Shown here piece after piece: positions 2-14,228 of a DNA stretch of 64,000 bases (positions are counted from its first letter, which is position 1; each line of letters opens with the position of its first letter). The notes beneath the pieces are model-generated. The model made no database searches and was not told the origin of the DNA. It saw nothing but the letters and a program-made list of their open reading frames with translations. The stretch comes from Sphingomonas mali NBRC 15500 (GTDB lineage Bacteria > Pseudomonadota > Alphaproteobacteria > Sphingomonadales > Sphingomonadaceae): positions 1 through 64,000 of the forward strand of contig NZ_BCYX01000018.1 of NCBI RefSeq assembly GCF_001598415.1, given 5' to 3'. A program made the translations under genes and the position numbers.

Positions 2-2605
2 GTGGAGATACGCACCACCTGCGCCTATTGCGGGGTCGGGTGCGGCATCGTCGCGCGGCGGACCGGCGAGCGCAGCGTGGAGATTGCCGGCGATCCCGAT
101 CATCCCGCCAATGCCGGTCGGCTGTGCTCGAAGGGCACGCATCTTGGCGAGACGGTCGGGCTCGAGGGGCGGCTGCTCCATCCGATGATCGGGACCAAGC
201 GCGTCGGCTGGGATCGCGCGCTCGACCTGGTCGCGCGGCGCTTTCGCGACACGATCGCGCGGCACGGGCCGAACAGCGTCGCCTTCTACGTCTCCGGCCA
301 GTTGCTGACCGAGGATTATTACGTCGCCAACAAGCTGATGAAGGGGTTCATCGGCTCAGGGAACATCGACACCAATTCGCGGCTGTGCATGTCGAGCGCA
401 GTCGCCGGCCATGTCCGCGCGTTCGGCGAGGATGTGGTGCCGGCAAGCTATGCCGATCTCGACGCCGCCGACCTGATCGTATTGGTCGGATCGAACACCG
501 CCTGGTGCCATCCGATCGTCTATCAGCGGATCATGGCTGCGCGCGCCGCGCGCGGCGCAAAGCTGGTGGTGATCGATCCGCGCCGCACCGAAACCGCGGC
601 CGAGGCCGATCTGCACCTGGCGATCCGGCCGGGCAGCGACGTCGCGCTGATGAACGGGTTACTCGCCTGGTGCCGCGATGCCGGGCTGATCGATCACGAC
701 TATCTCGCTGGGCACGTCAATGTTCCCGGCGATTTCTGGGACAAGCTTGGAGAGGGGAACGATCTGTGGTCGACGGCGCGGACGTGCGACGTCCAACCCG
801 CCGACCTCAGACGTTTCTACGACCTGTTCGCCGCCAATCCGCGCACGGTGACGATGTTCAGCCAGGGCATCAACCAGTCGGTCAGCGGCACCGATCAGGT
901 CAACGCGATCACCAATCTGCACCTCGCGACCGGCCGGATCGGCACGCCCGGCGCGGCGCCGTTCTCGATCACCGGCCAGCCCAATGCGATGGGCGGGCGC
1001 GAAGTCGGCGGGCTCGCCACGACCCTGGCGGCGCATATGGACTTCGCGCCCGAAAATGTGGCGCGGGTCGGGCGGTTCTGGGCCGCGCCCAACATGGCGA
1101 CCAAGCCTGGATTGAAGGCCGTCGACCTGTTCCGCGGCGTCGGCGAGGGGCGGATCAAGGCGATCTGGATCATGGCGACCAACCCCGCCGTCTCGATGCC
1201 CGACGCCGGCCAGGTGCGCGAGGCGCTGGCCGCCTGTCCGTTCGTCGTGGTGTCCGACGTGATCGCCGATACCGACACCAGCCGCTTCGCGCACGTCCGC
1301 CTGCCGGCGACGGCCTGGGGCGAAAAGGACGGGACGGTGACCAATTCGGAACGCTGCGTCAGCCGTCAGCGGCCGATCTTCGCGCCCCCGGGCGAGGCGC
1401 GGCCCGATTGGTGGATCGTCAAGGAAGTCGGCCGTCGCATGGGCTGGAGGTCGGCCTTCGCTTTTGACCGTCCGGTGGACGTGTGGCGGGAGCATGTCCG
1501 GCTGAGCGCCTACCAGAATGACGGAGCGCGCCGCTTCCGTCTCGACCGTGCGACGCCGGGCAATAGCGATTATGAGACGATGGAGCCCTTCCGCTGGGGC
1601 GACAACGCCTTTGCCGATGGCGTCTATCCGACACCGGACGGGCGAGCGCGGCTGGTCACCGTCACCCAGCGTGCCGGCGAGCGGCCGCTCGAACGCTGGC
1701 CGATGACGCTCAATACCGGGCGGTATCGCGATCAATGGCACACGATGACGCGCACCGGGCTCGCCCCCAAGCTGGCGCGCCATCGCGAGGAGCCGTTGGT
1801 CGAGGTCCATCCCGACGATGCCGCGCGGTTGGAAATCGCCGACGGCGCGCTCGCCCGGGTGTCGACGCCGCGCGGCGAGAGCCTTTATCGCGTTGCCGTG
1901 ACGGACGCGCAGCGGCCGGGCGAATTGTTCGTCCCGATCCATTGGACCGATCGCGGAGCGACCGGCGGACGCACAGGGCTGTTGCCGCGCCCGCTGGTCG
2001 ATCCGCACTCGGGCCAGCCCGGCTTCAAGACGACGCCGGCGGCGATCGCGGCGGTGGCGACCGAGTGGCGCGGCTTCCTGTTGATGCGCGGCGAGCCGGG
2101 CGCGATGCCCGATTGTCTGTGGGCGACCCGCGTCGCGGTGCCGCAAGGGACGCTGTGGGAATTGGCCAGCGATGGCGACGCCGCGGCGATCGAACGCCTC
2201 CTGCCGCAGGGCGACCGCATCGAAGCTGTCGACCCCGCCAAGGGATCGCGCCGCGTCGCCATTATCCGCGACGAGCGGCTGGCGGCCTTGTTGTTCGTCA
2301 CGTCGGAGGGCGTGCTGCCGTCGCGCGACTGGCTGATCGCGCAATTGGCGGCGCCCGAGGTCGCACCAACCCTGCTCGCCGGCCGCGCGCCGGGGCCGAG
2401 CGTCGATCGCGGCCCGATCGTCTGCGTCTGTTTCGATATCGGAGCGCGCGCGATCACCGACGCGATCCGCGCGGATGGCCTGGCGGACGTTGCCGCCGTC
2501 GGCGCGGCGCTGCGCGCAGGCACCAATTGCGGATCGTGCCGTCCGGCGATCGCCGGATTGATCGCCGATCACGCCAATCGGGAGAGTATCAATGTCGGTC
2601 GATGA
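2..2605 (+). CDS. nasA: Assimilatory nitrate reductase catalytic subunit with C-terminal BFD-like [2Fe-2S] domain
   Basis: Cytoplasmic molybdopterin enzyme reducing nitrate to nitrite. An N-terminal [4Fe-4S] motif uses Cys7, Cys10, Cys14 and Cys41. Cys129 in the NSRLCMSSAV motif is the expected molybdenum ligand of the Nas/Nap group. A molybdopterin-dinucleotide-binding region lies around residues 560-700. The C-terminus carries a BFD-like [2Fe-2S] module (Cys808, Cys810, Cys843, Cys846), as in Klebsiella-type NasA, which receives electrons from a flavoprotein partner. The length (867 aa) fits the family. The GTG at base 2 matches the usual family N-terminus, but upstream sequence is outside the window, so a slightly earlier start cannot be excluded. 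The 3' end overlaps the next gene by 14 bases. Nitrite reductase genes are probably just to the left. Confidence 0.93.
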   Translation: MEIRTTCAYCGVGCGIVARRTGERSVEIAGDPDHPANAGRLCSKGTHLGETVGLEGRLLHPMIGTKRVGWDRALDLVARRFRDTIARHGPNSVAFYVSGQLLTEDYYVANKLMKGFIGSGNIDTNSRLCMSSAVAGHVRAFGEDVVPASYADLDAADLIVLVGSNTAWCHPIVYQRIMAARAARGAKLVVIDPRRTETAAEADLHLAIRPGSDVALMNGLLAWCRDAGLIDHDYLAGHVNVPGDFWDKLGEGNDLWSTARTCDVQPADLRRFYDLFAANPRTVTMFSQGINQSVSGTDQVNAITNLHLATGRIGTPGAAPFSITGQPNAMGGREVGGLATTLAAHMDFAPENVARVGRFWAAPNMATKPGLKAVDLFRGVGEGRIKAIWIMATNPAVSMPDAGQVREALAACPFVVVSDVIADTDTSRFAHVRLPATAWGEKDGTVTNSERCVSRQRPIFAPPGEARPDWWIVKEVGRRMGWRSAFAFDRPVDVWREHVRLSAYQNDGARRFRLDRATPGNSDYETMEPFRWGDNAFADGVYPTPDGRARLVTVTQRAGERPLERWPMTLNTGRYRDQWHTMTRTGLAPKLARHREEPLVEVHPDDAARLEIADGALARVSTPRGESLYRVAVTDAQRPGELFVPIHWTDRGATGGRTGLLPRPLVDPHSGQPGFKTTPAAIAAVATEWRGFLLMRGEPGAMPDCLWATRVAVPQGTLWELASDGDAAAIERLLPQGDRIEAVDPAKGSRRVAIIRDERLAALLFVTSEGVLPSRDWLIAQLAAPEVAPTLLAGRAPGPSVDRGPIVCVCFDIGARAITDAIRADGLADVAAVGAALRAGTNCGSCRPAIAGLIADHANRESINVGR

Positions 2606-3380
2606 CTTTCCATCGGGCAGCGTCTGGCTGGTCGGCGCCGGTCCCGGAGACCCCGATTTGCTGACGCGCAAGGCCGAGGCACTGTTGCGCCGCGCCTCGG
2701 TGGTGTTCCACGACGCCCTGGTCGGACCCGGCGTGCTCGACCTCATTCCCGACCATGTCAGGCTGGTATCGGTCGGCAAAAGGTCCGGACGCCATTCGCG
2801 CGACCAGGGAGCGATCAACCGCCTGTTGATCGAAGCGGCCAGCGACGGCGAGCGCGTCGTCCGCCTCAAGGGAGGCGACCCGACGCTGTTCGCCCGATCA
2901 GCGGAGGAAATGGCTGCCCTCTCCGCCGAGGGCATCGCCGTCCGGATATGCCCCGGCATCACCGCGGCAAGCGCCGCCGCGGCATCGGCGGGGCTATCGC
3001 TGTCGTTGCGCGGTCATGCGCGCCGCGTCGAATTCGTTACCGCGCATGCCGCCCCTGGTCACCCGCTCGACCTCGATTGGCGCCGGCTGGCCGATCCGCA
3101 AGCGACGATCGCCTTCTACATGGGACGCGGTGCCGCGGCCGACATCAGTCGCAACCTGATCGCGGCCGGGCTTGCCGCGGCGACGCCCGTTATCGTCGCG
3201 TGCGATATCAGCCTGCCGGGCGAGACGAGGCTGCAGACCCGGCTCGACCTGCTGCCGTTCGCGGTCGCGACGATCGCCGACGATCGCCCGACGCTGATCA
3301 TTGTCGGTGAGGCCGTCGCACCGCCCGGAACGGCGATGGCGCAGATCGCTGCGACGAAAGCGGCCGACGCGCAACGTTGA
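2592..3380 (+). CDS. cobA: Uroporphyrinogen-III C-methyltransferase (siroheme synthesis)
   Basis: SAM-dependent methyltransferase that converts uroporphyrinogen III to precorrin-2, the precursor of siroheme, the cofactor of assimilatory nitrite and sulfite reductases. The N-terminal glycine-rich motif VGAGPGDPDLLT (about residues 14-25), the DALV segment and RLKGGDPTLFAR (about residues 92-103) are hallmarks of the CobA/SUMT family. The 262-aa length fits a stand-alone SUMT rather than the CysG fusion. Its ATG lies inside the end of the nitrate reductase gene, so the two are probably translationally coupled: this copy supplies siroheme for nitrate assimilation. Confidence 0.94.
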   Translation: MSVDDFPSGSVWLVGAGPGDPDLLTRKAEALLRRASVVFHDALVGPGVLDLIPDHVRLVSVGKRSGRHSRDQGAINRLLIEAASDGERVVRLKGGDPTLFARSAEEMAALSAEGIAVRICPGITAASAAAASAGLSLSLRGHARRVEFVTAHAAPGHPLDLDWRRLADPQATIAFYMGRGAAADISRNLIAAGLAAATPVIVACDISLPGETRLQTRLDLLPFAVATIADDRPTLIIVGEAVAPPGTAMAQIAATKAADAQR

Positions 3381-3410: not shown

Positions 3411-5111
3411 TCACCGCTTGGTCGTGCGATCCGGGATATAAGGCCGCCCGGCCTTGTCCGCCGCGGCCTTGGCCGGCGTGTCGGGGAACAGGTTGTTCAT
3501 CTTGGTCGGCAAATTGGGCTGGACGTACCATTGCGGCGGGAAATCGGCCGCGCGGGTGCCGTTCACGTCGCGATTGACCAACCCGCTGCTGGTCTTCTCG
3601 GTATAGGGCACGACATGCTGTCCCCGGCTGTTCGCGAGTTGCTCGAACAGAGCATGGCGCAGCACCAGCTTGCGATCGAAATAGGCGGGATCGTCGATGA
3701 GGTTGTTCATCTCGTCGGGATCTTTGGAGAGGTCGTACAGTTCCTCTGTATCCCATACCCCCTGATACTGGATGTACTTCAGGCGATCGCGCTCGATGGC
3801 AAAGGTGGTCGGCGTTTGCGGGAAGGTCCATTCCCAATAATATTCGTAAACGAAATCGCCGGGCTTCCAGTCGGCCGCTTTCACTTTGCCTTCGGCCAGC
3901 GCGAGCCAGCTCTTGCCCTCCATCTGCTTCGGCTCGGCAACGTGGGCGACGTCGAGGAACGTCGGCGCCAGGTCGAGGTTGCGCACCAAAGCGGGGTTGA
4001 CCGCGCCGCGCGGCAGCAGGCCCGGAGCATAAGCGATCATCGGGACGCGGACCGACGGTTCATAGGCGTTGCGTTTGTCGATCAGGCCATGGTCGCCGAT
4101 CAGGAAGCCATTGTCCGAATAGAAGACGATCATCGTGTTCTGATCGAGCCGCGCCTTCTTGAGATAGGCCATGATCCGACCCAGGCTCTCATCGACCGGC
4201 GACAGCGTGCGGTAGATATCGCGCACCTGCTCGGCCAGTTTGCGATCGCTGTGATAGGGGAAGTCTGCGCCATGCCAGCTGTTGCGCTGGTTGCGCACCC
4301 ATATCGGCTTGCCGCGATTGTTCTCGGGCGTGTTCGCCATGCTGGCCGGCAGCTTGATCTGGAGATTGCTATATTGCGTCTTGTAGCGATCCGGCGGCAC
4401 TGGATCCGAATGGACGGCCTTGTGGCTCAAATAGAGGAAGAACGGCTTGCTGGGATCGCGGCCCTTTTCCAGCCAGTCCATGGCATAATCGGTCAGCTCG
4501 TCGGTGATATATCCCGTTCGCTTGACGACCTTTCCGTCGACATTCAGCGTCTGGCGCTCGCCCGCCGCGACCTGCGCGGGCGATAGCTGATCGGTCGGGA
4601 AATAGGTTCCCTGCCCCTTGAAGCTGACCCATTTGTCGAACCCCGGACGTGGCGCGTCGGTATCGTTGCCCATGTGCCACTTGCCAAAGAAGCCCGTCTG
4701 GTACCCGGCCTGCTGCAGATAGGCGGGAAAGAAGATCAGGCCCTTTTCCGACGAATTGTTGTTGTCGATCACGCCGTGATTGCGCGCCGTCTGCCCGGTG
4801 AGGATCGTCGCGCGGCTCGGCGAGCACAGGGACGAGGTGACGACGGCATTGGGGAAATAGACCCCGTTCTTGGCCAGATAATCGATATTGGGCGTCTGCA
4901 GGCCAGGGGTGAGGAAACCCATCGCATCGAAGCGAAGGTCGTCGACCAGCACGAAGATGATATTTTCGGGTTTCGCCGGCGCGGGCTGTACCGGCTTGGG
5001 TTTTCCCGACGGGGATGCCGTTGCGGGGCCTCGGGCGGACAGCGGGGAGAGAGCCAGGGCGCAGGCCCCCAGCGCGACGATGCGCAGGCGAAAGCGGCGG
5101 CGGAAGGTCAT
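3411..5111 (-). CDS. S1-family sulfatase, secreted (first of two in the locus)
   Basis: Type I sulfatase of the alkaline-phosphatase fold. The ATG at 5111 is chosen over earlier in-frame starts because it follows an AAGGA ribosome site and begins a signal peptide (hydrophobic residues about 10-25). Cys96 in CSPSR (96-100) is the residue converted to formylglycine; Asp57/Asp58 (VDD) and the SDNG segment supply metal ligands. The product is 566 aa. The C-terminal YEYYWEW...ELYDLSKDPDE region resembles N-acetylglucosamine-6-sulfatase-like members, but the substrate is inferred only. The start codon overlaps the stop of the formylglycine-generating enzyme gene (ATGA), so the enzyme that activates it is made from the adjacent cistron. 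It is the last gene of the leftward operon. Confidence 0.9.
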   Translation of the reverse strand: MTFRRRFRLRIVALGACALALSPLSARGPATASPSGKPKPVQPAPAKPENIIFVLVDDLRFDAMGFLTPGLQTPNIDYLAKNGVYFPNAVVTSSLCSPSRATILTGQTARNHGVIDNNNSSEKGLIFFPAYLQQAGYQTGFFGKWHMGNDTDAPRPGFDKWVSFKGQGTYFPTDQLSPAQVAAGERQTLNVDGKVVKRTGYITDELTDYAMDWLEKGRDPSKPFFLYLSHKAVHSDPVPPDRYKTQYSNLQIKLPASMANTPENNRGKPIWVRNQRNSWHGADFPYHSDRKLAEQVRDIYRTLSPVDESLGRIMAYLKKARLDQNTMIVFYSDNGFLIGDHGLIDKRNAYEPSVRVPMIAYAPGLLPRGAVNPALVRNLDLAPTFLDVAHVAEPKQMEGKSWLALAEGKVKAADWKPGDFVYEYYWEWTFPQTPTTFAIERDRLKYIQYQGVWDTEELYDLSKDPDEMNNLIDDPAYFDRKLVLRHALFEQLANSRGQHVVPYTEKTSSGLVNRDVNGTRAADFPPQWYVQPNLPTKMNNLFPDTPAKAAADKAGRPYIPDRTTKR

Positions 5112-6091
5112 GGTCTGTCCTTTCTGCGAAGCACGCATCGAAAGCCGATATGGCTGGTGGAGGAGTCGATCGTCTGGGCGTGGCGTGCTGCCGGGCGATA
5201 GCGCTGGCAGTAATTGGCGGCACAAAGATGCGATCCGCCCTTCAGCACCTTGCGCCCGATCCGCACGTCCGGCGTGACCGGATCACGGCTGTCGCGCTCG
5301 CGGCCGCCACGCGGATTGGCCGGTACGCAACAGGCATTGCCGCGCTTCTTTTTCTCGATCGTCGGGAGCGACCACCAGTCCGCGGTCCACTCCCAGACAT
5401 TGCCGATCATGTCGAACAGGCCATAGCCGTTGGGCGGGTAGGTGCCGATCGGCGAGGTGCGCTCCCATCCGTCGAGCAACTGGTTGGCAAAGGGAAAGGC
5501 GCCCTGCCAGTAATTGGCGAGCATCCTTCCCTCGGGTGCCAGTTCGTCACCCCAGGCGAATTCGGCGCCGTCCAGGCCGCCGCGCGCGGCATATTCCCAT
5601 TCCGCCTCGCTCGGCAGGCTTTTGCCCGCCCAGGCGGCATAGGCTTGCGCATCGCCGTAAGCGATGTGGACCACGGGGTGATCGGCGAGGTCGTCGATCG
5701 CGCTGCCCGGCCCGAGCGGATGGCGCCAGTCCGCGCCGAAGGCGAACCGCCACCATAAGGAATAGTCCTGCAGGTCGACGGGTCCCGCGGTCGGCTCGAA
5801 CACCAGCGATCCGGGCTGTGCCATCTCGATCGGCATGCCGGGATAATCCGCCGGGTCGGGGGCGATCTCCGCCAGTGTCCGATGACCTGTCGCGGCGACG
5901 AATTGCGCAAACTGGCGGTTGGTGACAGGCGCCTCGTCGATCCAGAAGGGATCGACGCGCACCGGGCGCACCGGCGCTTCTTCCGGGTAGAAACGCTCAG
6001 ATCCCATCAGGAAGACGCCGCCGTCCAGATGGCGCATGCCGGCGGTCGACGCGGTGCCTTCACCTGTCGTGACGGATGCCGGTGTCACCAT
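5108..6091 (-). CDS. Formylglycine-generating enzyme (sulfatase-modifying factor, SUMF1/FGE type)
   Basis: Aerobic, copper-dependent FGE that oxidises the sulfatase CxPxR cysteine to formylglycine. The 327-aa product has the family pattern MGSERFYPEEAP (29-40), VTNRQFAQFV (56-65), the LPSEAEWEYAARGG segment (159-172) and GNVWEWTADWW (230-240). The active-site block GGSHLCAANYCQRYRPAAR contains Cys290 and Cys295, spaced as the two catalytic/copper-binding cysteines of characterised FGEs, so it should be active rather than one of the many non-catalytic FGE-fold proteins. No strong signal peptide is visible. Start 6091 is used; an upstream ATG would add 36 atypical residues inside the GH3 gene. 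It overlaps GH3 by 7 bases and the sulfatase by 4. Confidence 0.92.
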   Translation of the reverse strand: MVTPASVTTGEGTASTAGMRHLDGGVFLMGSERFYPEEAPVRPVRVDPFWIDEAPVTNRQFAQFVAATGHRTLAEIAPDPADYPGMPIEMAQPGSLVFEPTAGPVDLQDYSLWWRFAFGADWRHPLGPGSAIDDLADHPVVHIAYGDAQAYAAWAGKSLPSEAEWEYAARGGLDGAEFAWGDELAPEGRMLANYWQGAFPFANQLLDGWERTSPIGTYPPNGYGLFDMIGNVWEWTADWWSLPTIEKKKRGNACCVPANPRGGRERDSRDPVTPDVRIGRKVLKGGSHLCAANYCQRYRPAARHAQTIDSSTSHIGFRCVLRRKDRP

Positions 6092-7803
6092 CGCAACTGC
6101 TCCTGACCGCAAAAGGCATCGACCGGGCTGCGTCCGGTGAAGCCCGCCTCGCCGACCAGCCGCCGCACCAGCTCGCGCTGGTTGTCGGCCAGCGAACAAT
6201 AGGCGTTGATATAGGTCGAGAAATGGGGCGCGTCGTAGAGATAATAGGGCTGGCCGAACGACACCAGCAGCGTCGGAACCTCACGGTTGAACTGGGCCAT
6301 CGCCTTACGCGACCCGCCATGCAATCTGGTCATGTCGAGGAAGATATGGCCAAGGCTGGGCGTCGCTTCCTGGCCGATCAGGTAGACGAGCAGATCGGTG
6401 TCGGCCGGCGTCGGAAAATGATCGCGGTCGTAAAGGCGCAATTCAAAGCCGCGCCGTTCCATCTCTTCGGTGAACGGCGCGAAGCTGCGCTCGGGCGCGC
6501 CCGAGACAAAGCTCCAGCCCTGCTCGGCGATCATCGTCACCCGCCGATGGCGCACCGGGTCGAGCGGCAGCAGCGCCTGAATATCCTTGACCAGCGTCAG
6601 CCCTTCGCCGGCCGCTCGCCGGGCGGTGGCGAGATCGGCCGGCTGCCGCAGCCGCGCGCGCACCGTATCGAGCGGCGGGAGCCGCTCCTCCGCGGTCGCG
6701 CGGTGCAGGCCGAGCTTCGCCTTCAAGGTCAGCATCCGCGTTACCGCTTCGTCGAGCCGGGCCTCGCTCAACCGACCTTCCCGTAATCCCTTGAGCATCA
6801 GCGCCATGTCGGATTGCGGGTCGCGGCTGAACAGGAACACGTCGCAGCCATTCTCGATGACCGCCGGAACCGCCTCTTCACGGTCCATCCAGCTGGTGAG
6901 CCCGCCCATCGGGGTCGCGTCCGACACGACGAGCCCGCGAAACCCCAGCCGATCGCGCAACAGCGTCTGGTTGAGCAGGCGCGAGACCGATGCCGGGCGG
7001 AAAGCCTCGCGCCCCGCGTCCGGGACCAGCGACCGCACGAAAGCCGGCAGCGCGATATGCGCCGACATCACCGTCATCACGCCATCGCCGATCAGCGAAC
7101 GATAGATGCGCCCATAGCTTTCTTCCCATTCCGCGAGATCGAGCGGATTGACGGTGGTGGTCAGATGCTGATCGCGGTCGTCGATCCCGTCGCCCGGCCA
7201 GTGCTTGGCGGTCGCGGCGATGCCATGCGCCTGCAACACCCGGACATAGGCACGCGCCTGGGCGATGATCGTGTCCGTGTCCGCGCCGTAGGACCGCGTC
7301 CCCACCACGGCGTTGCGGAAAGCGCGATTGATGTCGACGACGGGCGTGAACGACCAATTATAGCCCAGCGCGCGGCTTTCGCTCGCGACGATCGCGGCGA
7401 TCTCTTCGGACAGCGACAGATCGTCGCAGGCCGCGATCCCCATCTGGTTGGGGACGGGCGTGACGAAGGGATAGCTGGTCGTGCCGCCTTCGATATCGCC
7501 CGACAGGATCAACGGAACCTCTGCGCGGTCCAGCGCATCCCGTGTCGCGCGCCAGGTTGCCGCGAGATCGCCGGCGGGAAAGCGGTGGATGCCGCCCGGA
7601 GCGAACGCGGTGAGCGCCGCGGTCTCCTCGGCCGTGTCTTCGCGGCTCGACAAGATGAAAAGCTGCGCGATACGGGCTTCGGCGTTCAGACCGTCGCGGG
7701 TGCGTTCCACCCATTGCCGGTCCGCCGGAAGAAGCGCGAGCGGATCCGGCATTGCCGCGCTTTGGTCAGTCACGGATGGCTCGTCCAGGAACTCGGGGGT
7801 CAT
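6085..7803 (-). CDS. Glycoside hydrolase family 3 protein (beta-N-acetylhexosaminidase-like)
   Basis: 572-aa GH3 enzyme. The N-terminal TIM barrel carries AKHWPGDG followed by DDRDQH, the Lys-His/Asp-His loop typical of the NagZ-type N-acetylglucosaminidase branch of GH3. The VVSDATPMGG segment supplies the probable nucleophilic aspartate. The C-terminal half resembles the second GH3 domain. No obvious signal peptide is seen, so it probably acts on imported oligosaccharides in the cytoplasm. The start overlaps the MFS transporter stop (ATGA), and its end overlaps FGE. Context suggests removal of an N-acetylhexosamine or similar residue from a desulfated oligosaccharide. Specificity is inference; beta-glucosidase-type activity is the main alternative. 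Confidence 0.86.
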   Translation of the reverse strand: MTPEFLDEPSVTDQSAAMPDPLALLPADRQWVERTRDGLNAEARIAQLFILSSREDTAEETAALTAFAPGGIHRFPAGDLAATWRATRDALDRAEVPLILSGDIEGGTTSYPFVTPVPNQMGIAACDDLSLSEEIAAIVASESRALGYNWSFTPVVDINRAFRNAVVGTRSYGADTDTIIAQARAYVRVLQAHGIAATAKHWPGDGIDDRDQHLTTTVNPLDLAEWEESYGRIYRSLIGDGVMTVMSAHIALPAFVRSLVPDAGREAFRPASVSRLLNQTLLRDRLGFRGLVVSDATPMGGLTSWMDREEAVPAVIENGCDVFLFSRDPQSDMALMLKGLREGRLSEARLDEAVTRMLTLKAKLGLHRATAEERLPPLDTVRARLRQPADLATARRAAGEGLTLVKDIQALLPLDPVRHRRVTMIAEQGWSFVSGAPERSFAPFTEEMERRGFELRLYDRDHFPTPADTDLLVYLIGQEATPSLGHIFLDMTRLHGGSRKAMAQFNREVPTLLVSFGQPYYLYDAPHFSTYINAYCSLADNQRELVRRLVGEAGFTGRSPVDAFCGQEQLRW

Positions 7804-9128
7804 TTGGTGCCCTCGGCCGATTGCGTGGCCTTGAGCCCGTGCATGCCGAGCAGGAGAAAGGCCACTGCGAGCGGTGAGAAGACGGCGCAGGTGATGGCGA
7901 TGGCTTCCGGCAGGCGCTGCGGATCGTGGAAACCGTAATCGGTGATGAGCGCCACCACCATCGGCCCGAGGACTCCGCCGACGAGGTTGACCAGCAGCAT
8001 GTAGCCAGCGGAAACGAGCGCGCGCATGCGATTGGGCGTGAGGTCCTGGAGCGCGGCAAGGCCGCCGCCGAGGTTGAAACCCGCGAAGAAGTTCATCGCG
8101 CCGATCATCGCCAGGGCCAGTCCCGGTGCCGCGACCAGCGGAAACCCGATCGTGAGCGGCACCAGCGCGACGAATCCGGTCAACGCCACCAACAAATTAC
8201 CCCGCGAGAAGCCGAGGCGATGCAGCCAGCTGGCGCAGAAGCCGCCGGCCAAGGCGCCGGTCGTCCCGCAGAAGAAGACGATCAATCCGTAGCGCGCCCC
8301 GATTTCCGCGATCGTCCAACCGAACTTTCGCCCGAAAAAGGCGGGGATCCACGCGCCCGTGCCGTTGCCGACCAGGATCATCATCGCAAAGCCCAGGCAG
8401 ATTCCGAAATAGGCCGCCTTGCGCGACAGGACATGGCTGAACAGCGCCGAGAGCGGCACCGAGCCGGAATCCGACGCCAGCCCGTGGCGCGCGGGCTCCC
8501 GGATCGCCAGCACCAGCAGCGACAGGAGCAAGCCCGGCACGCCCAGCGCGAGGAAGACGACGTGCCACCCCTTTACCGCGCCGATCACCGGCAGCGTGAA
8601 CGAGCTTTCCGGCGGGAGCACGCCGGCGACCAGGCCGCCGATGAGCAATGCCAGCGCACCGCCGAGATAAACACCCATCTGATAGACGCCCATCGCCGAG
8701 GCGAGCCGTTCGCGCGGAAAATAGTCGGACAGCAGCGAATAAGCGGACGGGCTGAATCCGGCCTCGCCCGCGCCGACGCCGATACGCGCCACGAACAAGG
8801 CGCCGAACGATCGCACCAGCCCGCACGCCGCGGTCGCCAGGCTCCACACGAAGATCGATGCCGCGATGATGTTGCGCCGATTGGAGCGATCCGCCAGCCG
8901 CGCGACCGGAATGCCGACGCCGACATAGAAGAGCGTGAAGCTCAATCCATAAAGCAGGCTCATCGCCGTATCGGAGGCCTGCAGATCCTGCTTGATCGGC
9001 TGCACGAGAAGCGCGAGCGCCTGGCGGTCGACGAACGCCAGCGTGTTCGCCAGCATCAGCACGATCGCGACGAACCAGGCGGTGCGCGCGGGTGGCCAGA
9101 CGTCCGCGCTGGTCGACTCCTTGCTCAT
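7800..9128 (-). CDS. MFS transporter (spinster/AAHS-like), probable uptake permease of the sulfatase locus
   Basis: 442-aa major facilitator with about 12 hydrophobic segments. FVDRQALALLVQPIK near TM1 and GIPVARLADRSNRRNI in the TM2-TM3 loop (the DRxxRR signature) identify the family. The start at 9128 (MSKESTSADV) is preferred over an upstream in-frame extension; it shares one base with the stop of the upstream sulfatase (TGATG). The 3' end overlaps GH3 by four bases. Sphingomonad catabolic loci often pair a TonB receptor with an inner-membrane MFS carrier, so this is the likely importer of the degradation product. The substrate is not determinable from sequence. Confidence 0.88.
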   Translation of the reverse strand: MSKESTSADVWPPARTAWFVAIVLMLANTLAFVDRQALALLVQPIKQDLQASDTAMSLLYGLSFTLFYVGVGIPVARLADRSNRRNIIAASIFVWSLATAACGLVRSFGALFVARIGVGAGEAGFSPSAYSLLSDYFPRERLASAMGVYQMGVYLGGALALLIGGLVAGVLPPESSFTLPVIGAVKGWHVVFLALGVPGLLLSLLVLAIREPARHGLASDSGSVPLSALFSHVLSRKAAYFGICLGFAMMILVGNGTGAWIPAFFGRKFGWTIAEIGARYGLIVFFCGTTGALAGGFCASWLHRLGFSRGNLLVALTGFVALVPLTIGFPLVAAPGLALAMIGAMNFFAGFNLGGGLAALQDLTPNRMRALVSAGYMLLVNLVGGVLGPMVVALITDYGFHDPQRLPEAIAITCAVFSPLAVAFLLLGMHGLKATQSAEGTK

Positions 9129-10495
9129 CAATCGGGTTTGACCAGGCCGGGCGGCGTGAAGTCGCGGAAAACCGCCGGAACGCCCTTCTTGAATCCGGCG
9201 AAGCGCGTGCGGGCGGCGGCGAAGCGCGCACGCATGTCGGCAAGCACCTCGGGATAGCGATCGGCGACGCTGTAGCTTTCGCTGGAATCGGCGGCGATAT
9301 CGTAGAGCTGGGGATATTTTGCGTCGGTCGAGATGAGGTGGCCGCGATAATAATCGAACGCCACATATTTCCACCGCTGCGTCCGGATGCCGACGAGATC
9401 CTCGTTGTTGAACAACAGCAATGCGTCGTGCGGCGTCCGCGCCGCCGATCCGTCGAGAACCGGCGTGAGGTCGCGGCCGTCGAGCTCGACCTGCGGCAAC
9501 GATGCGCCGGCGAGCCTGCATAACGTGGGCAGGAAATCGATTCCCATGGCGATGGCATCGGTACGGCGACCCGCGGGAATCAGTCCCGGCGCCCAGGCGA
9601 TCAGCGGGACGCGATAGCCGCCATCATAGCCGCCGCCGCCCTTGCGCTGGCGCAGACCGCCTGCCGAGCCTTCGAACCAGGGACCGTTGTCCGACGTGAA
9701 CAGGATCACCGTGTCGCGATCGAGCTTGCTCGCCTTGAGCTTGGCGAGCAGCCGGCCGACAATATCGTCTATCTCCGCGACGACATCGCCATAGGAGCCG
9801 ACCGCGGCGCGTCCTCGAAAGGCCTTGTTGGGATATTCCGGCAAATGCGGCGCGCTCAACGCCAGTTCGACAAAGAAGGGGCGGGACGCGTTCCGCTCAA
9901 TGAAGCGCTCGGCTTCGGCGTAGAAGCGTTGCTGCAATTGGGTCAGATCGGGCTTCTCTTCCCGCACCGGCCCGTCGCCGTCGATCGTGTAGAGCGGCAG
10001 CGGCGCCATGTCGTGGCTGTATGGAATGCCAAAGAAGTAATCGAAGCCGTGCGCGATCGGAGTCCAATGGTCGCCGGTATGGCCGAGATGCCATTTGCCG
10101 AACAGCCCGGAGACATAGCCGGCGGGCTTGAGCGCTTGCGCGATCGTCACCTCGGATTGAGGCAAAACGCGCGTGTCGTTCTGCATGATGACCTGATAGC
10201 CAAGGCCGGTGCGGACCGGATAGCGTCCGGTCAGCAACCCGGCACGTGACGGCGTGCACACATTGGCGGGCGAATAATAATCGGTGAAGGTGAGGCCTTG
10301 CGCGGCCAACCGGTTGAGGTTGGGGGTGGGGATACGGCGTCCGCCCGTCGGCTCGATATCGCCATAGCCGAGGTCATCGCACAGAATGACGATGAAGTTG
10401 GGCGGGCGTTTGGAACCGCGCGCGCCCAGCGGGCCGGATAAGGCCTGGCTGGCTAGCAATGCCGCGGCCGACCCGAGAAGCTGACGACGATCCAT
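9128..10495 (-). CDS. S1-family arylsulfatase, exported (second of two in the locus)
   Basis: 455-aa arylsulfatase A-like enzyme. The N-terminus MDRRQLLGSAAALLASQALS looks like a Tat-type signal with a short twin-arginine motif. Mature features include Asp40/Asp41 of the CDDLGYGD block, Cys80 in CTPSR (80-84) for formylglycine conversion, GKWHLGH, and TSDNGPW. It shows the compact arrangement of the arylsulfatase/GalNAc-6-sulfatase branch and is only distantly similar to the 566-aa sulfatase in the same operon, so the two probably remove sulfate from different positions or sugars. It follows the TonB receptor by 37 bases and overlaps the MFS gene by one base. Confidence 0.9.
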   Translation of the reverse strand: MDRRQLLGSAAALLASQALSGPLGARGSKRPPNFIVILCDDLGYGDIEPTGGRRIPTPNLNRLAAQGLTFTDYYSPANVCTPSRAGLLTGRYPVRTGLGYQVIMQNDTRVLPQSEVTIAQALKPAGYVSGLFGKWHLGHTGDHWTPIAHGFDYFFGIPYSHDMAPLPLYTIDGDGPVREEKPDLTQLQQRFYAEAERFIERNASRPFFVELALSAPHLPEYPNKAFRGRAAVGSYGDVVAEIDDIVGRLLAKLKASKLDRDTVILFTSDNGPWFEGSAGGLRQRKGGGGYDGGYRVPLIAWAPGLIPAGRRTDAIAMGIDFLPTLCRLAGASLPQVELDGRDLTPVLDGSAARTPHDALLLFNNEDLVGIRTQRWKYVAFDYYRGHLISTDAKYPQLYDIAADSSESYSVADRYPEVLADMRARFAAARTRFAGFKKGVPAVFRDFTPPGLVKPD

Positions 10496-10532
10496 CTCTT
10501 GGTTCCCTCAAAAAATCCCGCGGATCATACCA

Positions 10533-12974
10533 TCAGAAATGCACCGCGAAGGTCGCCCCCACATAGCGGTCGGCATCCTTGTTGAAGGTCGCGACGATGT
10601 CCTTCGAATTCGTCGTCGTGGCGAGCAGCGAGTTGTGCGAGATCGTCGAATAATAATTCTGATCGAACAGGTTCTTGGCGAACAAGGTCAGGCTGAAGCG
10701 GCGGTCGCTGGTATAAGCTCCGACGCTGAGGTCGACGATCGTATAGGCCTTCTGGATCAGCAGCGGATCCTGCTCGATGGCGAAGCCTTGCTTGCTCTGA
10801 TAGCTTACCGCCACCTGGGCGAAGCCGCCAAAGCTGCTTCCGACATCGAAATCGTAGCGCGGCGCCACCGTGAAACGCCATTTGGGCGAGGCAGGCAAGG
10901 GCGCGTTGCGCAAATCCTGGCGCGGGCCCGAGACGGTCGTCACGCCGTTCACCGTGGTGCTGGCGCGATAACAGCTGTTGACGGGGAAGTTCCCCGTGAG
11001 GGTCGGCGCGGCGGCCTGGAACTGGAGCGGGCAGTTGAGGCCATCGATGCTGACCGTCGAGTCCGTATACGCCAGCGATGCCTGGATATCGAGTTTCGCC
11101 AGGGGATGCAGCGTGGCTTCCAGCTCGACGCCCTGGCTGCGCGATTTGCCGGCATTGGTCGAGATGAAGGAAACGACACCAGTGATGGGGTCGCCGCGGT
11201 TGGCCTGCACCTGCAGGTTCGTATAATCCGCGCGATAGACGGCGAGCGCGAAGCTGAGCAGCCCGTCTCCGGTCCGGCCCTTGAGGCCGACCTCATAGGC
11301 ATTGACGTGTTCGGGCTTGAGGTCGGTCTGATGGGCGAAGTCGGTGCCGGCCTCCATATTGTAGCCGATGCCTTTGTACCCCCTGGTATAGGTCGCATAG
11401 GTCTGCAGGTTGCGGCTGAATTCATATTGCAGGCCGGCCTTGCCGGTCACCGCGGTGTCACTGTCCCGGAGGGTTCCCGTCGAGACGGCGGCCACGCCCG
11501 GCAGCAACGTGTCGCCGGCGTTGGTCACGCCAAGCTGCGTGCCGTAATTGGTGCCCGTTTCATATTGGACGCGCAGCCCGCCGATCAGCTTGAGGCCGCC
11601 GACGATCCGGTACTCGGCCTGGCCGAATGCCGCGATATTGTCGGTCTTGAGGTCTGCGAAGCTCGACGAGGATTGATAGGTCGGCGCCGCGCAAGGCTGG
11701 CCAATCGTGCCGCTCGAGCAGACCGCGCGGCGGCGCGCGTAAGGCCGTTTCACCTCGCCATGGCTGTAAAAGGCGCCGACCACATAGGTGAAGTCGCGAT
11801 TGCCGTTGGACGCGATGCGAAGCTCCTGCGAGATCTGGTTCAGATCGACGATGCCCTGGTTGAAATTCCACGACGCGTAAGCGGATGGGCCGACATAGAG
11901 CACCGGGTTCGAGTCGATGCGGTCGACCGGCTGGTTCACCAGCAGATGATATTTCTGATAGGCGGTGATCGAGGTGATCGTGGCCGCGCCGAGATCCCAG
12001 TCACCCTGCAGCGAGATCGTCGTCTGGCGGCTGTTGGCCTTGTTGAGGGTATCTTCCGATACCAGGCGGTTGGTCGGGGACGCCACTACGGGGGCTTCGA
12101 GGCGGGCGATCACGGGGTTGACCACGCTGATCGACGAATAGGTGCAACAGCTCGAATAGGTCTCGCGATAATCGGCGCCGAGCAGGAAGGTCAGATTGGG
12201 CGCCGCCTCCCACTCGATCTTGCCGCGCAGGCCCCAACTTTCCTGGCCGTTGACGTGGCGCTTCAGCGTGACGTTGTACGCGGGGCCCTGCACATTGTTG
12301 TAAAAGCCGCCGACGCGCACGCGCAGCGTGTCCGAGATCGGGCCCGACAGCGTGCCCTTGACGCGGTATTCATTGTCTTCGGCGATCGTCACGTCGCCCT
12401 TCGCTTCGAAAGTGGACGTGGGGCGGGCGGTCACGATGCTGAGCACGCCGGCGCTCGCATTCTTCCCGAAGAGCGTGCCTTGCGGTCCGCGCAGCACTTC
12501 GATCCGGTCGACGTCGGCGATGTCCGACAGCGACTGGGCGGCGCGCACCATCGGAACGCCGTCGACGACCACGGCGACCGACGATTCGACCCCCTGGCCG
12601 AACAAGGCGGTGCCGACACCGCGGATACGAAAAGTGGTGTTCGCGGGATGGTTGCCCTGCTGGAAGGTGAGCGAAGGGACTGCCCGCGTCAGCGCGGTGG
12701 TGTCGTTGATCTGACGGCTGGCCAGCGTTTCCCCGCTGACGGCGGTCACGGCGAGCGGCACGTCCTGCAGTCGCTCGCTCCGCTTCTGGGCAGTGACGAT
12801 GATGTCGTTCGACGTATCCTGCGCGGACGCCTGGTCGTCGCTCGGCGCCGCCGGACTCGTTGGCGCTGGCGTCGGCGCGGACTGCGCATGCGCGGGAAAG
12901 GCGCCGAGGGCCAGGGAAATGGCGAGCGCGCCCGCCGCGCTGGAGAGGCGATAGAAGTTACGAAGATCGGCCAT
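10533..12974 (-). CDS. TonB-dependent outer-membrane receptor (SusC-like, sphingomonad type)
   Basis: 813-aa outer-membrane receptor for energised uptake of large substrates. Signal peptide at residues 1-31 (ends AHA-Q). The plug domain includes IIVTAQKRSERLQDVPLAVTA in two adjoining parts, FRIRGVG, and VLRGPQGTLFGKNASAG. A long beta-barrel follows and ends with the C-terminal aromatic (AVHF). Of two close ATGs, 12974 is chosen because an AGGAGG sits nine bases upstream of it. It is the first gene of the leftward operon containing two sulfatases, an MFS carrier, GH3 and FGE, so it most likely imports the sulfated oligosaccharide. It is divergent from the LacI regulator, with two palindromic operators in between. 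Confidence 0.93.
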   Translation of the reverse strand: MADLRNFYRLSSAAGALAISLALGAFPAHAQSAPTPAPTSPAAPSDDQASAQDTSNDIIVTAQKRSERLQDVPLAVTAVSGETLASRQINDTTALTRAVPSLTFQQGNHPANTTFRIRGVGTALFGQGVESSVAVVVDGVPMVRAAQSLSDIADVDRIEVLRGPQGTLFGKNASAGVLSIVTARPTSTFEAKGDVTIAEDNEYRVKGTLSGPISDTLRVRVGGFYNNVQGPAYNVTLKRHVNGQESWGLRGKIEWEAAPNLTFLLGADYRETYSSCCTYSSISVVNPVIARLEAPVVASPTNRLVSEDTLNKANSRQTTISLQGDWDLGAATITSITAYQKYHLLVNQPVDRIDSNPVLYVGPSAYASWNFNQGIVDLNQISQELRIASNGNRDFTYVVGAFYSHGEVKRPYARRRAVCSSGTIGQPCAAPTYQSSSSFADLKTDNIAAFGQAEYRIVGGLKLIGGLRVQYETGTNYGTQLGVTNAGDTLLPGVAAVSTGTLRDSDTAVTGKAGLQYEFSRNLQTYATYTRGYKGIGYNMEAGTDFAHQTDLKPEHVNAYEVGLKGRTGDGLLSFALAVYRADYTNLQVQANRGDPITGVVSFISTNAGKSRSQGVELEATLHPLAKLDIQASLAYTDSTVSIDGLNCPLQFQAAAPTLTGNFPVNSCYRASTTVNGVTTVSGPRQDLRNAPLPASPKWRFTVAPRYDFDVGSSFGGFAQVAVSYQSKQGFAIEQDPLLIQKAYTIVDLSVGAYTSDRRFSLTLFAKNLFDQNYYSTISHNSLLATTTNSKDIVATFNKDADRYVGATFAVHF

Positions 12975-13077
12975 GGTGCGCATCCTCCTTTTTTCCGAAG
13001 CCGCACATGCGTGACGGCCCAAATCGGGATGCTCGAACCTTGGTGCCGGCTATCCCCTCGGCTCTGATCTGCGTCAG

Positions 13078-13135
13078 ATGTAGCGCTACATGATCTGGGG
13101 TTCGGGGCGAGTCAACAACTTTGTGTAGCGCAACA
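13078..13135. promoter_or_regulatory. Tandem palindromic LacI-family operator candidates
   Basis: Between the divergent receptor and LacI genes lies a perfect 14-base palindrome, ATGTAGCGCTACAT (13078-13091). A second, near-perfect copy, TGTAGCGCAACA, is at 13124-13135. Both have the central CG step typical of LacI-family operators, and their centres are 45 bases apart. The second copy is flanked by CAACTT/AAGTTG arms (13116-13121 and 13135-13140). The position suits autoregulation and control of the receptor operon. The motif is seen directly; binding is inferred. Confidence 0.7.
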
Positions 13136-13160
13136 AGTTGGTTTCTGAGAGGATGCGGAT

Positions 13161-14228
13161 GTGGGCGACAAGGACAAATCGCGGAAATCGAGCAACGCGG
13201 TGACGATGCACGCTGTTGCTGCGCGTGCCGGCGTATCGCCGATGTCCGTGTCCAACGTGATCAACGGGCGCACCGTTCGGCCGGCAACGCGCGAAGCGGT
13301 GTTACGGGCGATCGAGGAGCTTGATTACAAGCCGAATGTCGCCGCCCGCGCGCTGGCGAGCGCAACGATTACCCGCATCGGCTTATTGTATCACAGTGCC
13401 GAGAGCGCGTTCGTCAGTGCCTTGCTGGTGGGGGCGCTCGACGCCGCCACGCGCTTCGGGGCGCAATTGCTGATCCGTCGGTTCGAAGAGGCGCGCTCGC
13501 TCGCCGATATCCTGTTCGACATGGTCGCGGGTGGCGCGAACGCGCTCATCTTGCCGGCCCCGCATTGCGAGGCGATCAGCGGTACGGGCCTGGTCGAGCG
13601 ACTGAAAGTGCCGGTCATCGCGCTCTGCTCCGGCGACGAACTGCCCGACATGGCCTCGGTCCGCGTCGACGACGTCGCCGCCGCGCGCGACATGACCCGC
13701 TACCTGATCGGCCTCGGCCATCGCCGCATCGGCTTCGTGCGCGGCGCGCAAAATCACGTCATCAGCCGGACGCGGTTCGAGGGCTATCGTCTCGCTTTGA
13801 CCGAGCATGGCATTGGCTTCGATCCCGACCTGGTCGTCGATGGGGATCTCACCTTCGATTCGGGCCTGGCGGCAACGGAACAATTGCTGTCATTGCGCGA
13901 TCCGCCCACCGCGATTTTCGCGAGCAACGACGACATGGCGGCCGCGGTCGTCTCCGTCGCCCATCGTCGCGATATCCGCGTACCCGACCAACTTTCCATC
14001 GTGGGCTTCGACGACAGTCCGATTTCGCGCAAGATCTGGCCGGCCCTGACGACCATCCGGCAGCCGATCGTCGACATGACGGCGATTGCCGTCGAATCGC
14101 TGATAGCGATGTTCGGCGATCCCCAGGCACGATCGTCTCCAGCCGTTTCCACGATTTATGCCGAACATTCCCTCGTGATCAGAGGGTCCAGCGGTGCCCC
14201 GGTGCAGGGGATCGGTTCAGTGCGATAG
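13161..14228 (+). CDS. LacI-family transcriptional regulator of the sulfatase/TonB locus
   Basis: 355-aa repressor. The N-terminal helix-turn-helix (about residues 15-62) contains VAARAGVSPMSVSNVING and the hinge-proximal YKPNVAARAL. A periplasmic-binding-protein-like ligand domain follows from about residue 70 (RIGLLYH, VRVDDVAAARDMTRYLIGLGHRRIGFV, STIYAEHSLVIRGSS). The GTG start at 13161 is preceded by GAGAGGA at good spacing; the nearby ATGs are out of frame. It is divergently transcribed from the TonB receptor and is probably its local regulator, responding to a sugar released by the pathway. Its last 12 bases overlap the converging universal stress protein gene. Confidence 0.92.
   Translation: MGDKDKSRKSSNAVTMHAVAARAGVSPMSVSNVINGRTVRPATREAVLRAIEELDYKPNVAARALASATITRIGLLYHSAESAFVSALLVGALDAATRFGAQLLIRRFEEARSLADILFDMVAGGANALILPAPHCEAISGTGLVERLKVPVIALCSGDELPDMASVRVDDVAAARDMTRYLIGLGHRRIGFVRGAQNHVISRTRFEGYRLALTEHGIGFDPDLVVDGDLTFDSGLAATEQLLSLRDPPTAIFASNDDMAAAVVSVAHRRDIRVPDQLSIVGFDDSPISRKIWPALTTIRQPIVDMTAIAVESLIAMFGDPQARSSPAVSTIYAEHSLVIRGSSGAPVQGIGSVR

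Follow-up and report, generated by a model that had tools for sequence, protein, structure and literature searches.

Among the described systems closest to the locus analysed here are the polysaccharide utilization loci (PULs) of Bacteroidetes with S1 sulfatases of the host-glycan type, in which a TonB-dependent receptor (TBDR), exported formylglycine sulfatases, a glycosidase and a regulator are clustered. We find the same combination at positions 3411-14228 of a 64,000-nucleotide stretch of Sphingomonas mali NBRC 15500 DNA (contig NZ_BCYX01000018.1, positions 1 to 64,000, hereafter the window). Unlike the PULs, this locus has a LacI regulator, an MFS carrier, a formylglycine-generating enzyme (FGE) within the gene run and a GH3 enzyme that looks cytosolic; of a SusC/SusD pair only the TBDR is present, no SusD being found among the seven window proteins scanned with Pfam. 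The locus is conserved and regulated, and it can be placed, as a variant, among the uptake loci with sulfatases that are already known. As to its function, our data suggest a LacI-controlled operon that would scavenge a small beta-glycoside carrying sulfate, the likeliest candidate being a sulfated phenolic beta-glucoside, e.g. a turgorin-type hydroxybenzoate-O-glucoside 6'-sulfate, and we give this reading about an even chance of being correct.

The genes of the minus strand are, in the order of transcription, those of the TBDR (10533-12974, assigned by Pfam), the exported S1 sulfatase sulf2 (9128-10495, Pfam and motif), the MFS carrier (7800-9128, Pfam), the GH3 enzyme of the BglX/BglP beta-glucoside phosphorylase type (6085-7803, Pfam and PDB homology), the aerobic-type FGE of 327 amino acids (5108-6091, PF03781 and PDB matches) and another exported S1 sulfatase, sulf1 (3411-5111, Pfam and motif). 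The LacI-family regulator is encoded divergently on the plus strand (13161-14228, Pfam), and the expected Pfam domain is present in all seven proteins. A gap of 37 nt separates the TBDR gene from sulf2; the subsequent genes overlap by 1 nt (sulf2/MFS), 4 nt (MFS/GH3), 7 nt (GH3/FGE) and 4 nt (FGE/sulf1), exactly as a first-pass annotation of this DNA had given them. The same annotation had joined all seven genes in one unit: the tight run from the TBDR to sulf1 stands and probably forms a single transcript, but the LacI gene lies outside this transcript because it is divergent. Inspection by eye indicated N-terminal export signals on the TBDR, sulf1 and sulf2, the start of the last being twin-arginine-like, and no signal peptide on the FGE or the GH3 enzyme; the localisation of the proteins assumed below is the one that these features predict.

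With the GH3 protein as a query, 43 loci were retrieved from public genomes. Its distribution is patchy: at E <= 1e-100 it was found in 4 of 298 genomes sampled across the family and in 10 of 295 genomes of the genus, the window's own genome being counted in both. The main comparison set comprises 37 non-redundant sphingomonad loci found through GH3, window included; dropped were repeats (L074 of L042, L075 of L022, L101 of L035 and L099 of L038), shorter versions (L071-L073, L076-L082) and partial or weak GH3 matches (L063, L064). A sulfatase is present in 34 of the 37 loci, a LacI regulator in 35, an MFS carrier in 34, a TBDR of more than 50% identity in 27 and an FGE in 22 (near full length in 20 of these), where absence means absence from the examined stretch: L042, L043 and L103 extend to the end of a contig or stretch, and the FGE that L038 is scored as lacking lies about 1 kb outside its stretch (L067). 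Sulfatases were scored by presence or absence only, as numbers per locus are unreliable (neighbours less than 250 nt apart were merged and some matches were split). The common order in Sphingobium is LacI / TBDR-GH3-second GH3-FGE-sulf1-MFS, as on the RAC03 megaplasmid. The FGE/sulf1 overlap of 4 nt is retained in all 14 gene-called loci that have the two genes as neighbours (ATGA in 13, GTGA in one), the genes of the relatives having been called by a simple codon-score script, so that their starts may be off. Chance does not account for the grouping of the genes, since relatives have them together again and this overlap is kept in 14 out of 14 cases. A lack of conserved gene order in relatives had been named beforehand as a result that would speak against the first-pass annotation; the comparison gave no such result, and the notion of a conserved, regulated locus for a sulfated substrate that carries its own FGE is supported.

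Two operator-like sites are present: a perfect palindrome, ATGTAGCGCTACAT (13078-13091), and TGTAGCGCAACA with one mismatch (13124-13135), 45 bp from the first; both are pattern matches without an assigned strand and both lie between the LacI and TBDR genes. When the draft genome was searched with the pattern TGTAGCGCTACA at up to one mismatch (reversed-pattern control: 20 per strand), only two sites were obtained, both in the LacI-TBDR gap. Paired sites with up to two mismatches and 44-46 bp apart are located upstream of LacI in 15 of the 22 loci (window counted) for which a LacI gene was called, and additionally in L083 and L086, in a scan made without a shuffled control. The twin palindromes, as putative operators, fit a dedicated LacI regulator, which would probably act as a repressor.

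The FGE of the locus has its best PDB matches among aerobic FGEs (6s07, 5nxl, 1y1e), with which it shares the PF03781 domain and, in KGGSHLCAANYCQRYRPAAR, the Cys-x4-Cys pair formed by the catalytic residues Cys290 and Cys295. Sulf1 and sulf2 have the PF00884 domain and the C-x-[PA]-x-R motif of S1 formylglycine sulfatases, as CSPSR (Cys96) and CTPSR (Cys80), respectively; the cysteines and motifs had been read correctly before. The FGE gene differs from those of the aerobic FGEs named above in overlapping a sulfatase gene by 4 nt. This FGE is local but not unique in its genome: a second one, 51% identical, adjoins another sulfatase, and the pair (L015:7120-9459, contig C4) has CTPTR and Cys-x4-Cys. 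Among the seven sulfatase-domain matches of the window genome, C-x-[PA]-x-R is found in five, CSTTR in one and no such motif in one. We surveyed 23 genomes for canonical FGEs (PF03781 at E <= 1e-55, no stops) and covered 14 of them by the sulfatase search. These 14 hold 18 intact canonical FGEs, from which a copy with two in-frame stops (G015:C23) is excluded, and 16 of the 18 adjoin a sulfatase; G009 and G023 have no sulfatase-domain match and no canonical FGE other than those of the locus, and G016 resembles them except that its sulfatase is truncated. The two FGEs without such a neighbour (L065:7975-8886 and L066:7978-8898) are exactly those of the genomes, among the 14, whose locus lacks the FGE (G003, L024) or keeps a remnant of 100 residues (G013, L034). 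They are 87-88% identical to the FGE of the Sphingobium locus L023, and no sulfatase was found near them within a stretch of 16 kb. For the Novosphingobium loci L039-L041, the FGE is absent from the stretch but present elsewhere in the genome; no canonical FGE was detected in G004 (L025) and G022 (L043), both of which are metagenome-derived assemblies. Local FGEs are the rule, and linkage in cis is not essential. The conserved overlap of 4 nt favours coupled translation of FGE and sulf1, but stoichiometry does not follow from it. The stoichiometric co-production proposed earlier, and strict co-production altogether, are disfavoured by the other FGE-sulfatase pair in the genome, by the unlinked FGE of two relatives and by the catalytic nature of an FGE.

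The best solved relative of the GH3 enzyme is the beta-glucoside phosphorylase BglX (5vqd, also 5vqe), to which residues 26-567 align over the full length with E 3.1e-94, while the next one, a GH3 N-acetylglucosaminidase, matches residues 89-369 only, with E 5.2e-38. By homology, the catalytic dyad is Asp211-His213 and the nucleophile Asp295, and these motifs are present in all 24 sphingomonad GH3 rows examined. The putative phosphorylase-type enzyme shares with BglX/BglP (5VQD, 5VQE) the full-length similarity and the Asp-His dyad by which membership of this group was judged, and also the nucleophile motif; it differs in being encoded among sulfatase genes. It scores 125.7 bits against the NCBIfam hexosaminidase model NF003740, below the curated cut-off of 207, and the earlier assignment as an N-acetylhexosaminidase is not supported, the BglX/BglP type being far closer. 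A passage of PMC8950772 states that His-Asp GH3 enzymes can be phosphorylases, and in Brevibacillus (L049) the genes flanking a homologous GH3 gene are those of a GPH symporter and of a beta-phosphoglucomutase that exceeds its cut-off. However, a beta-phosphoglucomutase above the cut-off was found in only one of 17 genomes tested, which is the window's own. Because phosphorylase homology and the Brevibacillus context stand against this count, phosphorolysis by the GH3 enzyme is plausible but unproved. Judged by the GH3 enzyme alone, the sugar may also be GlcNAc.

The nearest solved relatives of sulf1 are glycan sulfatases, including GlcNAc-6-O-sulfatases of the S1_11 type (BT4656, BT3177). The specificity triad in BT4656 consists of D361, R363 and H447 according to an excerpt of PMC6994673, and a passage of PMC10154612 assigns O4 binding to the Asp/Arg pair and O3 binding to the His. 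At the positions placed from these passages, sulf1 retains the equivalents of Asp361 and Arg363, DKR being present in 19 of the 20 rows of orthologues (the remaining one, L037, is truncated before the site). In contrast to the S1_11 6-O-sulfatases, the equivalent of His447 falls into a gap in the window sulf1, and there is no His in 18 of the 19 rows covering the site so placed, window included; the orthologue L026 has one His beside it. A predicted structure of sulf1 was set aside, its mean pLDDT being 48.5 from a 9-row alignment. For sulf2, the nearest solved relative is arylsulfatase A, followed by steryl-sulfatase. A pair of sulfatases of which one acts on sugar sulfates and the other on aryl sulfates would fit a sulfated phenolic glucoside.

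The nature of the aglycone is indicated by genes of some relatives. In 7 of the 37 sphingomonad loci (L038, L084, L085, L100, L102, L103 and L105) the gene immediately after GH3, on the same strand and 3-50 nt away, codes for a gentisate 1,2-dioxygenase, and each of these seven proteins exceeds the TIGR02272 cut-off. The next gene is of the FAH family in all seven loci, and a maiA-type (maleylacetoacetate isomerase-like) gene is present in six of them; the maiA-type proteins tested (L038, L100) exceed their cut-off. Such runs are like those of gentisate catabolic clusters, but the window is without gentisate genes and TIGR02272 gave no match in its genome. The seven loci are spread over three parts of the GH3 tree, in which the window GH3 belongs to a clade of weak support (91/97, drawn open) together with L105 and L022. 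In the latter locus, from Sphingomonas populi, LigB-LigA genes come after the TBDR; next to the same sulfatase locus, a tryptophan halogenase-family gene (L022:17315-18835) lies beside a second LacI gene. Within one genus, a gentisate dioxygenase above the cut-off was found in 5 of 10 GH3-positive genomes versus 8 of 285 GH3-negative ones (p 1.6e-5, uncorrected for relatedness). The window genome has an unlinked LigAB pair that scores as a protocatechuate 4,5-dioxygenase type. Taken together, the ring-cleavage genes indicate that the aglycone is aromatic for some members of this locus family; that of the window's own locus may be a different one, as its genome is without a gentisate dioxygenase.

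The scheme that we propose starts from what can be read in the sequence: the genes and their overlaps, the motifs, the operator-like sites, the conservation and, in some relatives, the linkage to gentisate or LigAB dioxygenase genes. The sulfated glycoside would enter the periplasm by TonB-dependent uptake, where the two exported sulfatases would strip aryl and sugar sulfates; the desulfated glycoside would pass in through the MFS carrier and be cleaved by the cytosolic GH3 enzyme, by phosphorolysis or hydrolysis, to a sugar and an aglycone destined for ring-cleavage pathways. The cytosolic FGE would turn the Cys of CxPxR into formylglycine prior to export of the sulfatases, and LacI bound to the twin operators would repress the genes until an inducer is present. 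Both the order of these steps and the substrate should be read as proposed rather than given. Glucosinolates were considered as a substrate in view of a GH3 myrosinase and were set aside. Turgorins are known from several legumes according to a passage of PMC6259451, and a reference title in PMC4199319 gives the structure of one as gallic acid 4-O-(beta-D-glucopyranosyl-6'-sulfate); we infer the turgorin link from this title, the cited passages and general knowledge of the chemistry.

A number of observations weigh against a sulfated phenolic beta-glucoside. Neither a gentisate dioxygenase nor LigB is present in 29 of the 37 loci, the window among them, the FAH-family proteins tested had Pfam matches only or passed no equivalog cut-off, and an unlinked LigAB pair as in the window genome is common in sphingomonads. 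L035, L104 and L106 have GH3 without a sulfatase within the stretch examined, and sulfatase and FGE were both absent by tblastn from 5 of 9 rhizobial or Thioclava loci and from all 17 distant ones. L038 and L100 have five sulfatase genes each, which is beyond the need of a monosulfated glucoside. The single beta-phosphoglucomutase among 17 genomes weakens phosphorolysis to beta-glucose-1-phosphate; BglP is listed with beta-GlcNAc1P as well as beta-Glc1P (PMC8950772), and an Asp-His GH3 enzyme is described that showed no phosphate effect (PMC6572805).

Alternatively, the locus may serve a sulfated oligosaccharide of algal, cyanobacterial or plant origin without any aromatic part, the receptor taking it up, the sulfatases removing sugar sulfates, the GH3 enzyme cutting a beta-glucoside or beta-xyloside and the gentisate genes being separate cargo. 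Related loci with several unlike sulfatases, the glycan sulfatases nearest to sulf1 and a carrier of the locus that is an algal-phycosphere isolate are in line with this, as is a second GH3 protein of about 630 amino acids (e.g. L023:7289-9184), which is present in 20 of the 37 loci, the window locus not being one of them, and whose nearest match is the solved beta-glucosidase 9ul7, followed by SN243. However, no endo-hydrolase or lyase was found among the proteins scanned, and separate cargo does not sit well with gentisate genes at 50 nt or less from GH3 in seven loci at three tree positions. We thus regard an oligosaccharide as possible, though rather unlikely. The target favoured by the first-pass annotation, a sulfated GlcNAc or GalNAc glycan of keratan, heparan or mucin type that is desulfated and then cut by a GH3 N-acetylhexosaminidase, appears improbable. 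The Asp-His dyad shared with NagZ-type enzymes, the GlcNAc-6-sulfatase relatives of sulf1, its retained D361/R363 equivalents and the His of L026 speak in its favour; it is opposed by the hexosaminidase score below the cut-off and the far greater closeness to BglX/BglP, by the window and 17 further orthologues having no His in the H447 position or beside it, by the gentisate or LigAB genes in the runs of relatives and by the absence of endo-acting glycan enzymes already mentioned. An amino-sugar glycan should be replaced as the predicted target by a sulfated, probably phenolic, beta-glycoside. Scavenging of plain aryl or steroid sulfates for sulfur, with GH3 as a passenger, would suit the relatives of sulf2, but is very improbable in view of a sulfatase in 34 of 37 sphingomonad GH3 loci and of the LacI-type regulation and MFS carrier, which suggest carbon use.

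Beyond the sphingomonads, sulfatase, GH3 and FGE are found together in four of the nine rhizobial or Thioclava loci, all four being from Neorhizobium. The GH3 query matched 37 plasmid records, and the 12 taken up were chosen among 20 of these, including four of the six Neorhizobium records; no relative of this GH3 turned up when viral contigs were scanned by pattern. On a Neorhizobium petrolearium plasmid (L091:8056-14260), the sulfatase, GH3 and FGE genes adjoin an annotated anaerobic sulfatase maturase, and thus both kinds of maturase occur together. In actinobacteria, a protein of about 305 amino acids adjoins the distant GH3 homologue at L048:11766-12689 and in eight further loci (L051-L057, L059); it is 60-74% identical to the L048 copy and had no NCBIfam match in the two cases tested (L048, L053). 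In the window itself, molybdopterin oxidoreductase-like (nitrate reductase-like) and uroporphyrinogen methyltransferase-like genes, recognized by eye at 2-3380, converge on the end of the sulfatase run.

Many phenolics of plants and algae are protected by sulfation; to our knowledge, no operon is described by which a bacterium imports a sulfated phenolic glycoside and processes it down to ring cleavage. Among the papers listed, a literature search found none that by its title or the opening of its abstract deals with such a sphingomonad sulfatase-FGE or gentisate-sulfatase operon; its coverage of subscription papers was poor, which makes this a weak sign of novelty. It is conceivable, though we think it unlikely, that the locus stands for an undescribed kind of operon for sulfated phenolic beta-glucosides, either turgorin-type plant signals or defence phenolics of algae and plants, which would combine import, desulfation, an FGE on the same transcript, cytosolic phosphorolysis and ring cleavage, and would have spread on sphingomonad megaplasmids and islands and, reduced to sulfatase-GH3-FGE, in Neorhizobium including legume-nodule strains. 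If the proposed function is true, these bacteria would offer a concrete gene set for the use of sulfated phenolic glycosides from import to ring cleavage, and phosphorylase-type GH3 enzymes would be tied to sulfated substrates. The FGE, which is found inside the locus, truncated or moved out of it, would then also provide a natural case for the dependence of sulfatases on a neighbouring activator.

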